NCBI RefSeq assembly: GCF_004340665.1
Contig: NZ_SLWO01000003.1
Span: 496,001 to 560,000, forward strand
Length of the DNA stretch: 64,000 nucleotides
Origin: Pedobacter psychrotolerans
GTDB taxonomy: Bacteria > Bacteroidota > Bacteroidia > Sphingobacteriales > Sphingobacteriaceae
Direction: 5' to 3'
The notes beneath the pieces are model-generated. The model saw only the letters and a program-made list of their open reading frames with translations, was not told the DNA's origin and did not search any database. Positions 23,274-31,353 of this stretch are shown one piece after another (position 1 is the stretch's first letter; each line of letters starts with the position of its first letter). Made by a program: the position numbers and the translations under genes.

Positions 23274-24746
23274 ATGAAATTCAAATATATAACGCTTCTG
23301 TTTGCCATTGCAGTGCTATTGGCAAGCTGCACTAAAGACTTTGAAAAAATCAATACCAACCCCAATGCACCAGAAACCACCAATACGGAGTTTTTAATGT
23401 CTGATGTATTGGTTTCAACAGCCTACGCCTACCAGGAAAATGCAGTTGGCAGAAGACCAGCTTCGGCAGCGCGCTACCTTACACTGGTGCGCAATACTGG
23501 TTACGATTTGCTGGATTGGGGACCAGTTGACTGGGATGATATTTATGCCCGTTTAGCTGTGAACAAAACTTTTTTAGAAACCGCTCAAAAGCGATCAGAG
23601 AACCAGTATATCGCCATCAGTAAGATCATGAAAGCCTTTAATTTTGGCTATCTAACTGATTTATATGGAGATGTTCCCTATTCACAAGCGCTTAAATCTA
23701 AAGAATCCAATCTGATTTATCCGGAATATGATCAGCAACAAACCATCTATCCTGATTTGTTAAGAGAACTTAAAGAAGCCAACGATATCCTGAAAGGCAA
23801 TTTACAGGAGATCAACGCCAAAGGAGATGTGATGTTCAAAGGGAAGGCACTCGCCTGGCGAAAGTTTGCCAATTCACTCCGTTTACGCATGTTGTTGCGC
23901 ATCTCTAAAAACTATGCGCCAGCCTTTACTGAAATGCAGGAGATGGTGAATGATAAAACTGCGTTTCCCATTTTTGAAAGCAGTGCCGATAATGCCGAGA
24001 TCGCATACCTGGGCAACATTGCCACTTACAGCTGGTCAGGTGGCCCTTTAGCCATGATTGATTTTGACTACTTAAAAACCAAAGTGAGTAAGGAACTGGT
24101 AGATCGGCTGATTCAGCGAAATGATCCAAGGTTGGCCATTTGGGTAGAGCCTGTAAAAAGTACGGTTGGATCGACTGTGGATTTTAATAAATATGTTGGC
24201 GTACCCAATGCTATTGATGCGCCATCAGCATATAACGGTGGAGAAGATCATGTTTCTGTTTTTTCCTCTTCATTCTTCAGGAAAAATGGAGGTACAACCA
24301 ATCCCTTATTAAAAGCCAGCCTGGTAACTTATACCGAGCAGTGCTTTATTCTGGCAGAAGCCATGCAGAAAGGTAAAATTACGGTTAGTGGAGAAACAGC
24401 AGAATCCATGTACTATAAAGGCATCCAAGAATCGATGAGCAGTTATGCGGTATCAGCAGCTCAAACTTACTACAATCAGCCACTTGTAAAATATGATGGT
24501 ACACTGGAACAATTAATTACGCAGAAATGGTTAGCCATGTTGTTTAAAGGTTCGGAAGGATGGTTTGATCAACGCCGAACGGGCTACCCGGCTTTTGTAA
24601 CTGGTCCGCTTGCAGCCGGAAGGGGAATCCCTAAACGTTACATCTATCCAGACTCGGAAAGCGCAAAGAACAAAGCCAATTACCAGAAAGCCGTCTCAGT
24701 TTTTGGCGCAGACAATCAGTACACGCTCATGTGGTACCTCAAATAA
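23274..24746 (+). CDS. SusD/RagB-like (SusD_2 type) lipoprotein
   Basis: SusD-like surface lipoprotein, 490 residues. Lipobox LASC with Cys19, then TKDFEKINTNPNAPETT, the typical opening of the SusD_2 (PF12771-type) branch rather than the classic SusD. Core motifs FNFGYLTDLYGDVPYSQAL, GKALAWRKFANSLRLRMLL and QKWLAMLFKGSEGWFDQRRT are clear. SusD_2 partners are usual for STN-type SusC proteins. It is tightly spaced after susC (12 bp) and before the phosphatase (25 bp), so these are one transcript. Confidence 0.93.
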   Translation: MKFKYITLLFAIAVLLASCTKDFEKINTNPNAPETTNTEFLMSDVLVSTAYAYQENAVGRRPASAARYLTLVRNTGYDLLDWGPVDWDDIYARLAVNKTFLETAQKRSENQYIAISKIMKAFNFGYLTDLYGDVPYSQALKSKESNLIYPEYDQQQTIYPDLLRELKEANDILKGNLQEINAKGDVMFKGKALAWRKFANSLRLRMLLRISKNYAPAFTEMQEMVNDKTAFPIFESSADNAEIAYLGNIATYSWSGGPLAMIDFDYLKTKVSKELVDRLIQRNDPRLAIWVEPVKSTVGSTVDFNKYVGVPNAIDAPSAYNGGEDHVSVFSSSFFRKNGGTTNPLLKASLVTYTEQCFILAEAMQKGKITVSGETAESMYYKGIQESMSSYAVSAAQTYYNQPLVKYDGTLEQLITQKWLAMLFKGSEGWFDQRRTGYPAFVTGPLAAGRGIPKRYIYPDSESAKNKANYQKAVSVFGADNQYTLMWYLK

Positions 24747-30020: not shown

Positions 30021-30262
30021 ATATTTAAATGGTAATAATATTCAAAAAATAATGCAATTAAGCAAATATCATAAATCCATATTGCTTCCGAAATACTTCT
30101 TAATATAATTTAAAAAGCATAAACACTCAGTAAAAGGCAGATACGTTTTTATAACACCTAATACAGATTAAGTGTTGCAGTATGGTAAAATAATTTAAGG
30201 AATTTCCTCCAACTGCCATAAATTGAAGATTTGATCTGTTTAAATACGCCGCCTTATAAAGG

Positions 30263-30358
30263 CTAAAAAAGAAAACGGGAATCATCCCTAAGGACGACTC
30301 CCGTTTAATCTAAATTAACGCTCTCAGGTATAAGACGGTAATTTTAAAAGATTATTGT
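30263..30358 (-). ncRNA. candidate small RNA, copy 1 (terminator-ended)
   Basis: Read on the minus strand, a conserved block ACCGTCTTATACC-TGAGAGCGTTAATTTAGATT leads into a 15-bp hairpin (30273-30306, UUAG loop) with two G-U pairs. A TTTTCTTTTTT tract follows. The same block recurs 268 bp away as copy 2. Changes between the copies fall in the loop or keep the stem paired, which indicates selection on RNA structure. Either a stand-alone sRNA or a leader/attenuator of the histidine kinase gene that starts about 240 bp downstream. No Rfam family recognised. Confidence 0.6.
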
Positions 30359-30471
30359 ATGGACTGAAAATTATTTTAAAAATAAGATATTGATAATAAC
30401 TTAATCATGTCAGAAATCAGGATATTTCTTTTGTGGTATCGCTATAAGGCCTCTTAGCGTATTATATTTAA

Positions 30472-30502
30472 ATGCGGAGAATAACCTTGATAATCTCCGC
30501 AT
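30472..30502. repeat. inverted repeat between the two sRNA copies
   Basis: Perfect 9-bp arms ATGCGGAGA and TCTCCGCAT around a 13-nt loop. A third copy of the arm (TTGCGGAGAATAGG) follows immediately. Could be an operator or part of a longer structured leader. Role unknown. Confidence 0.45.
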
Positions 30503-30530
30503 CATTTGCGGAGAATAGGTAAATTTTGTG

Positions 30531-30628
30531 CTAAAAAAGAAAACGGGAATCATCCCGAAGGACAACTCCCGTTTAATCTAAATTAACGCTCTCAGTATAT
30601 AGACGGTAATTTTGAATCAATATTGTAT
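30531..30628 (-). ncRNA. candidate small RNA, copy 2 (terminator-ended)
   Basis: Second copy of the element at 30263-30358. On the minus strand TACAATA and AAAATTACCGTCT precede TGAGAGCGTTAATTTAGATT, then a 15-bp hairpin (30541-30574) with a UUCG tetraloop and the same U-tract. The stem differs from copy 1 by C to U in one arm, turning a C-G pair into U-G, so pairing is kept. The similarity extends upstream to about 30641, so each copy probably has its own promoter. Confidence 0.6.
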
Positions 30629-30792
30629 TACACTAAAAATATTTTTATTTTTCTTTAAACATATCCTGATAAGGCCAGCCATTTAACTTTATAAAATGAA
30701 TAAATTTAAATATAAAATCTGTATGCAACATTATTCAACATCCTGCGACTACAAGATAGAAACTGCTAAAACGCCGACTAACTAAACGCTCA

Positions 30793-31353
30793 TTGCCACA
30801 AAAAGATAACATATCAGATCAGGAATTGATTTCCCTTTGCCTTCAGGGTAAAGATTTGGGCTATACCGGATTGTACAACCGTTATGCCCGTGGGATTTTT
30901 AACTCCATTAGCAGACTGATTACACATAGCGCAGAGGCAGAAGACATTTTACAGGAAACCTTTTTTACTGCTTTCAATGATCAGAAGCGACTAAAGGAAA
31001 TTAATAATTTTGAAGCTTGGGTAAGGAGAATGGCCATTAACAAATCTATTTCTCACATCAGGCGAAAGAAACTGTTGTTTTCAGATCTTGGCGATCATGA
31101 ATTCAGGGCGGAAGCTGAATACGACATCAGAGATGATGAAATTTTTGAAAGCCGTGTAGAAGATGTCCGCCGTTGTATTAACGAACTTTCAGATGGATAC
31201 AGAACAATATTAAACTTGTATCTTTTTGAAAAAATGTCGCAGGATGAAATTGCGCTGATGTTAGGAGTTGCCTCATCAACGGTTAGAACGCAATATCACC
31301 GCGCAAAAAAGAAAATTTTAAGTTCACTTAAGGATAAAGCATATTATGAATGA
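30793..31353 (+). CDS. ECF RNA polymerase sigma factor
   Basis: ECF sigma factor of 186 residues. The start appears to be TTG 30793, because no in-frame ATG exists between the upstream stop and the conserved ISDQELISLCLQGK opening. Region 2 (YTGLYNRYARGIFNSISRLI, AEDILQETFFTAFND) and region 4 (YRTILNLYLFEKMSQDEIAL, then VASSTVRTQYHRAKKKIL) are complete. The stop overlaps the next gene by 8 bp, so the two products are translationally coupled, as for a sigma/anti-sigma pair. Distinct from the FecI-like sigma at 18 kb. Confidence 0.9.
   Translation: MPQKDNISDQELISLCLQGKDLGYTGLYNRYARGIFNSISRLITHSAEAEDILQETFFTAFNDQKRLKEINNFEAWVRRMAINKSISHIRRKKLLFSDLGDHEFRAEAEYDIRDDEIFESRVEDVRRCINELSDGYRTILNLYLFEKMSQDEIALMLGVASSTVRTQYHRAKKKILSSLKDKAYYE

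Follow-up and report, generated by a model that had tools for sequence, protein, structure and literature searches.

Two tandem hairpin-terminated elements in Pedobacter psychrotolerans

The window, a 64,000-nt stretch of the Pedobacter psychrotolerans genome, contains a 116-nt block in two copies on the minus strand, at 30262-30377 and 30530-30645, with a start-to-start spacing of 268 nt and an identity of 84% without gaps (89% by BLAST). Their neighbours are a gene for a histidine kinase rich in PAS domains and, in divergent orientation, an ECF-sized gene of the sigma-70 family (30793-31353), accompanied by a gene for a HEAT-repeat protein. Each copy has the layout of an RNA gene of about 60 nt, in which a promoter-like motif is followed by an 18-nt leader (GAGAGCGUUAAUUUAGAU), a hairpin of 15 pairs, G-U pairs included, and a U-tract (Table 1). 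The hairpins of the two copies differ in one stem base, which turns a C-G pair into U-G, and in one loop base (UUAG vs UUCG), while the leader is unchanged and the similarity continues upstream of it into the promoter-like motif ACAATA ... CCGTCT. Except for the continuation into the promoter-like motif, which is an addition, the particulars pointed out by a sequence-only reading of the same DNA were correct: the block occurs twice on the minus strand 268 nt apart, the terminator search recovered a 15-bp hairpin with a U-tract in each copy, and the stem change, the loop change and the constant leader are as described.

Table 1. Features of the two tandem copies (window coordinates; C3 coordinates refer to the genome contig)
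Feature	Position	Strand	Basis
Copy A leader, 18 nt, GAGAGCGTTAATTTAGAT	30576-30593	-	predicted unpaired RNA 5' end; exact match C3:526576-526593
Copy A unit	30533-30593	-	covariance model R1 match
Copy A terminator hairpin, 15 pairs, loop UUCG	30541-30574	-	terminator search and folding
Copy A U-tract TCTTTTTT	30533-30540	-	terminator search
Copy A -10-like element ACCGTCTAT	30599-30607	-	family promoter profile
Copy A -35-like element ACAATAT	30620-30626	-	family promoter profile
Copy B leader, 18 nt	30308-30325	-	exact match C3:526308-526325
Copy B unit	30265-30325	-	covariance model R1 match
Copy B terminator hairpin, 15 pairs, loop UUAG	30273-30306	-	terminator search and folding
Copy B U-tract TCTTTTTT	30265-30272	-	terminator search
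Copy B -10-like element ACCGTCTTA	30331-30339	-	family promoter profile
Copy B -35-like element ACAATAA	30352-30358	-	family promoter profile

Between 29900 and 31000 the terminator search found three sites, one nested inside another, against a mean of 0.7 (sd 0.9) in shuffled sequence. The folding z-scores of the two copies are -5.1 and -4.9, and none of 200 shuffles folded equally well. The DNA between the copies holds three GCGGAGA-like words in alternating orientation (30472-30517, by eye), as well as an inverted repeat at 30472-30483/30491-30502.

A leader family in Sphingobacteriaceae and in viral contigs

BLAST searches with the block detected additional, diverged copies in the genome of origin. 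The 18-nt leader itself has nine exact matches there, none with one mismatch, one with two and eight with three, and the reversed-pattern control gave seven matches in all. By eye, a hairpin and a T-rich tail stand behind all ten leaders with up to two mismatches and behind none of the eight with three. The first 14 nt of the leader (GAGAGCGTTAATTT, hereafter the core) occur 11 times in this genome (control, 0), each time ahead of a hairpin of differing sequence. A covariance model built from members of other genera only (R1) also gave 11 matches in the genome, the eleventh of which (C6:342230-342290) has a changed leader 3' end; it recovered both window copies, with E values of 1.8e-9 and 3e-9, scores that owe much to the leader by which the rows of the model had been found.

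In a sample of 151 genomes of the order, every one of which falls in the family Sphingobacteriaceae, the core was present in 79. Every one of the 63 Pedobacter genomes, that of P. psychrotolerans included, has at least four copies, and 16 of the 88 family genomes of other genera carry it, 15 of them with a single copy; the control pattern matched five times in all, twice among those 88. With one mismatch allowed, the leader was found in 77 of 201 family genomes (three control matches in all). All 36 Pedobacter genomes, among them the own genome, carry between 3 and 13 copies, and the remaining 41 come from the 165 genomes of other genera, where the leader is mostly a single copy. BLAST with a window copy (E ≤ 0.001) matched 55 of 60 genomes of the genus, again counting the own genome, and three of the five that it missed have 4-5 leaders by pattern. 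At the level of the phylum, the leader was found in four of 395 genomes, all within the family (two control matches), and the core in nine of 375; outside the family the core occurs in five of 365 genomes with one match each, which equals the five control matches there. A tally of R1 matches (98 of 121 genomes) was discarded as an overcount, two of the three matches listed for genome G123 having been read and found to be plain terminators.

The exact leader is present in at least 119 stretches of named genomes, and Pedobacter accounts for 75 of the 80 named records among the matches listed. The tandem pair itself is found in Pedobacter sp. R20-19 (L101), with nearly the same upstream sequence as in the window, and tandem arrays occur elsewhere, for example at 24012, 24247 and 24488 of G005:C2. 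The exact leader is also carried by 31 viral contigs. Among cultured phages, 39 records gave weak matches only (best E 0.1 among the matches listed); no match extended over 80% of the query, and the 20 matches listed covered the hairpin part only.

Two copies alone are too thin a basis on which to argue for selection, and it is the family-wide data that provide evidence for it. The proposal of the sequence-only reading, namely a selected RNA or a pair of sRNAs to be checked with a covariance model, has been borne out as far as sequence can do so, by the R1 matches, the recurrent core and the kept stem pairing described below; its concern that homologous copies might be missing elsewhere is answered by the 63 core-bearing Pedobacter genomes.

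Conserved leaders, diverging stems

We compared 196 distinct host members. The hairpin begins 16-23 nt from the first base of the leader in all of them, and in 137 it adjoins the leader without a gap. It has a median of 14 pairs, with 74 distinct 8-nt stem bases across the set. At least ten pairs with at least four T in the next ten positions were found in 189 of the 196, as compared with 47% of chimeras, in which the stem halves were taken from different members, and 21% of shuffles. Because so many controls also pass this cut-off, the helix score is the stronger measure: its median is 29 in host members vs 11 in chimeras and 8.5 in shuffles, and 2% of the chimeras reach 29. A stricter hairpin test applied earlier was passed by 143 of 194 members vs 18 of 194 shuffled sequences. 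Viral hairpins are weaker, with at least ten pairs in 23 of 32 viral members. Folding predicts leader nt 1-13 to be unpaired, with a mean probability of about 0.9, and nt 15-17 to tend toward the paired state.

RNAalifold returned no pairs on a MAFFT alignment (A1), in our opinion because stems of different length are out of register. A1 was replaced by the per-member helices and chimeras described above and by an alignment from other genera (A2) of 22 of the 26 other-genus sequences, from which L124, L215, L220 and L225 were left out as their helix or length looked different. In A2, six pairs are changed on both sides vs 3.0 in shuffles (reached in 0 of 500), and 18 cells are changed on both sides vs 6.0 (sd 2.5; 0 of 500). 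The number of further pair types in A2 was not above that in shuffles (13 vs 12.5; 262 of 500).

The members compared here had been collected by their exact leader, so that leader variation is invisible in them by construction. Diverged members were obtained from 12 matches, two of which were judged on reading to be plain terminators. Five of the remaining ten keep the 14-nt core, five are changed within these first 14 nt, and nine keep GAGAGCG; conservation is therefore strongest at the 5' end.

Promoter-like motifs and the RNA 5' end

For the analysis of upstream sequences, the members were divided into Pedobacter (170), other genera (26) and viral (32); seven loci from named genomes were moved by hand to the other genera on the basis of promoter or hairpin type, and at least two of these bear the name Pedobacter. 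Three groups of members show promoter-like profiles, each set at a constant distance from the leader. In 24 of the 170 Pedobacter members TAnnTTTG, which we take to be the sigma-A motif of Bacteroidota, lies near the leader, and in ten a different 5' element takes its place. The remaining 136 share, on average, a bipartite profile, with CAATA or an AAAC-like sequence at about -32 to -27 and CGTTTAT at -13 to -7; [AC]AATA is in place in 86 of them, and some have no clear motif. The 26 members from other genera have AAC ... GTATAAG, at the same distance from the leader as in Pedobacter. ECF-sigma promoters have the consensus AAC at -35 and CGT or GTA at -10. Read against it, both bipartite motifs may be of ECF type, and an alternative sigma factor, probably an ECF one, would drive most copies. 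Since unlike motifs keep one distance, they would place the start of the RNA at the leader; family members are presumably transcribed, with their 5' end there. A promoter weight matrix used to define a regulon was uninformative (111 matches vs 77 in shuffled sequence).

A leader in this position lies where a repressor could block the promoters, and could thus be a DNA operator at the start sites of a set of genes and not an RNA seed. We regard this as most improbable given that a terminator-like hairpin stands directly behind 189 of 196 host copies and that 25 of the 31 viral copies have no recognised promoter class (a sigma-A motif was found in five and the other 5' element in one).

In viral contigs other sequences adjoin the leader. 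ARAGORN identified tRNA genes in eight of the 31 viral loci (L194, L195, L196, L197, L200, L203, L207 and L209), and in L196 (2802-2893) the leader begins at 2876, the base that follows the end of a tRNA-Met gene at 2875. What look by eye like the starts of tRNAs behind the hairpin in L182, L187 and L210 are not called as tRNA by ARAGORN. In viral locus L208 (2897-2960, minus strand), a match to the RAGATH-1 hammerhead (RF03152) ends in the leader, with GAGAG forming stem I, and the predicted hammerhead-like cut falls at the leader start. This match scores 36.2 bits, below the gathering score of 56.3, with E 0.022 over 54,687 bases and 1e-4 over 251 bases; RAGATH-1 would therefore be a 5' module of this one viral member and not the family itself. 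A regular expression for a hammerhead-like core up to 130 nt upstream matched four of 228 members vs 152 of 20000 background windows, and only L208 was judged convincing.

It is conceivable, although we advance it as a long shot, that the exact RNA 5' end (GAGAGCG...) is itself the functional feature, common to hosts and phages and generated by whatever means are available, be it several unrelated promoters in hosts or, in viral sequences, a sigma-A-like promoter (5 of 31), the 3' end of a tRNA (one contig) or a hammerhead-like ribozyme (one contig). If so, phages would be using a host regulatory word, either firing the host network or saturating its protein partner.

A second type of 5' region was noticed by eye, consisting of a hairpin with the loop GGUGAGAG, which resembles the leader start, and a short hairpin that ends at the leader. 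It is present in nine genome loci (L062, L069, L080, L126, L135, L140, L157, L159 and L168) and in one 183-kb viral contig (L207). Five of these ten loci were searched against Rfam and gave no ribozyme match at this region.

Genomic context

All 139 members in named genomes lie outside long ORFs. Downstream of the unit, the nearest gene runs in the opposite direction in 90 of these members and in the same direction in 33; in the other 16 the fragment does not include it. In the window the kinase ORF has the same orientation as the copies and begins 288 nt past the copy B leader, and both terminators are upstream of it, an arrangement that had suggested that the copies are a tandem pair of transcription attenuators belonging to the leader of this five-PAS kinase gene. 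The family gives this suggestion hardly any chance: with the downstream gene in opposite orientation in 90 of 139 members attenuation is unlikely, neighbours vary from member to member, and the window copies bear promoter-like motifs of their own.

In other genera, the copy often lies behind a comF-like or lipoprotein gene and often faces a gene for a PAS hybrid kinase, a receiver-domain gene or a glyA-like gene, and in P. psychrotolerans one copy lies between comF-like and glyA-like genes (all names by eye). We read the comF-like/glyA-like neighbourhood as the ancestral location. A recurring neighbourhood of this kind, with one copy adjoining comF-like, lipoprotein or glyA-like genes in several genera and in the own genome, also bears on whether the family is a mobile or repetitive DNA element, such as a dispersed terminator or a MITE-like repeat, without RNA function. 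Copies are indeed multiple, dispersed, sometimes tandem and present on viral contigs, but a spreading repeat would preserve its entire sequence, whereas here only the leader is constant, the stems diverge with pairing kept, and the promoter motifs differ yet hold their distance. We thus find a mobile element very unlikely.

A candidate family of trans-acting sRNAs

The sequences themselves establish that there is a family with the spread described above, that its leader is conserved and its stem pairing kept, that promoter-like motifs stand at a fixed distance from the leader, and that its members are intergenic. We propose, with a probability of about 0.62, that the two window elements are genes of a multicopy family of trans-acting sRNAs of about 60 nt, found in Sphingobacteriaceae and expanded in Pedobacter, which combine a 5' seed with a terminator. 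Such an RNA would begin with the single-stranded leader, usually the same 18 nt and in diverged members at least GAGAGCG, and pass at once into the intrinsic terminator hairpin. The leader would be the working part, a seed for pairing with mRNAs that an RNA-binding protein might also hold. All that the hairpin would do is end and protect the RNA, so that its sequence could drift as long as pairing is kept. With different promoters feeding one leader, several signals could converge on one output, and the number of copies would set the dose. It is the architecture alone that led us to choose a trans-acting sRNA whose seed lies at the 5' end; pairing would be its mechanism and mRNAs its targets, and the main competing reading is protein binding.

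Target predictions, made on samples of the genes, pointed to no clear class of targets. Perfect leader complements in the start regions of 898 ORFs showed no clear signal, and leader duplex energies at 617 start regions were no better than those of 60 shuffled leaders. At the 0.5, 1, 5 and 50% quantiles, the number of shuffles (out of 60) that matched the difference in pairing between start and coding regions was 44, 9, 1 and 2. In a set of 1408 start regions, words complementary to leader nt 5-12 are over-represented: TTAACGCT occurs eight times vs 1.3 for permuted words, and none of about 60 permuted words reaches this count, but four of the eight occurrences encode Leu-Thr-Leu in frame. Over 1267 genes of the own genome, 46 tests gave a few leader-complement words at the 1% level. 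Two gene groups named by eye pair better on average than most shuffled leaders, a GPH-type transporter (L286; 26 start regions from 29 loci, ahead of 195 of 200 shuffles) and an L,D-transpeptidase-like protein (L309; 30 start regions from 30 loci, ahead of 197 of 200), in sets that include the own genome, which had been selected for pairing, and at least one misassigned start (L398). The perfect seed match of L286 was seen in the own genome alone; only close relatives retain the L309 site, and they do so in part. A presumed citrate synthase target was read by eye as SIR2-like and dropped. Pairing of the leader with a sample of six tRNAs gave no signal.

The own genome has 57 SusC-model matches. 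For 29 SusC start regions, from 30 of these loci, the mean predicted pairing of the leader is -6.1 kcal/mol vs -7.2 for shuffled leaders, and 288 of 300 shuffles equal or surpass it. The same loci (L254-L283) have a feature of their own: just past the start codon, at nt +9 to +24 and in all three reading frames, [CT]TAC occurs in 24 of 29 SusC ORFs vs 69 of 591 other ORFs, and TTTAC in 15 of 29 vs 23 of 591. It has no apparent complementarity to the leader and is a nucleotide-level element, perhaps a site for an sRNA or for translation.

A conserved and unpaired leader with no convincing mRNA target might instead bind a protein, the RNAs acting as decoy or carrier, and so long a fixed leader would suit this function too. 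The own genome has one RRM_1 protein (L284), its single RRM-domain protein and a candidate partner, and FopS RNAs bind the RRM protein RbpB (PMC11697453). With no more than 18 nt to work from, however, target prediction has little sensitivity, and the absence of targets is therefore weak evidence; we consider protein binding in place of mRNA pairing unlikely, although well worth keeping in mind.

Relationship to known RNAs

Our searches of Rfam 15 agree with the earlier remark that no named family was known for the block. The window has no match at the gathering score. With the limit set at E 10, nine loci of the own genome gave five matches, the best at E 0.094, and we consider none of them related. 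Covariance models of Pedo-repair (RF01715) and Flavo-1 (RF01705) did not match the window or these nine loci; a Flavo-1-like RNA is present at L157:4424-4491 (41.8 vs a gathering score of 42), about 3.4 kb from the leader there. In the portion of the literature that we searched, no description was recognised as this leader family. The family is thus apparently uncatalogued, although multicopy sRNAs made of a seed and a terminator are themselves already known.

Among these, the enterobacterial envelope-stress sRNAs of the RybB/MicA type are short RNAs with a conserved 5'-terminal seed, a terminator and an alternative-sigma promoter. The Pedobacter family would resemble them in its 5' seed, its terminator and its alternative-sigma-like promoter, by analogy.

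A closer parallel in build is FopS of Bacteroides thetaiotaomicron. FopS comprises 14 paralogous sRNAs (12-15 in relatives), mostly intergenic, with a single-stranded conserved 5' stretch followed by a Rho-independent terminator; its sequence is also found in a phage, the genome has an RRM protein, and the RNAs, expressed from a sigma-A-type motif, repress susC translation (PMC11697453). The Pedobacter family likewise is multicopy and mostly intergenic, combines a single-stranded conserved 5' stretch with a terminator hairpin, has viral copies and occurs alongside an RRM protein. Unlike FopS as described there, it has a sigma-A-type motif in only 24 of 170 Pedobacter members, and susC start regions are not predicted targets of its leader; its core, also unlike FopS, occurs at most once in any genome sampled outside the family. 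This is a likeness of build, set side by side by description and not by sequence; at the nine own-genome loci the search to E 10 gave nothing resembling FopS, in a release (Rfam 15) that may not contain FopS. Pedobacter and its relatives would gain a defined, conserved, multicopy sRNA-like family, whose conserved leader and viral copies make it possible to test the RNA 5' end as a selected feature and the exploitation of host sRNA regulation by phages. Together with FopS, it would be a second example of this architecture in Bacteroidota, with another leader and mostly other promoters.
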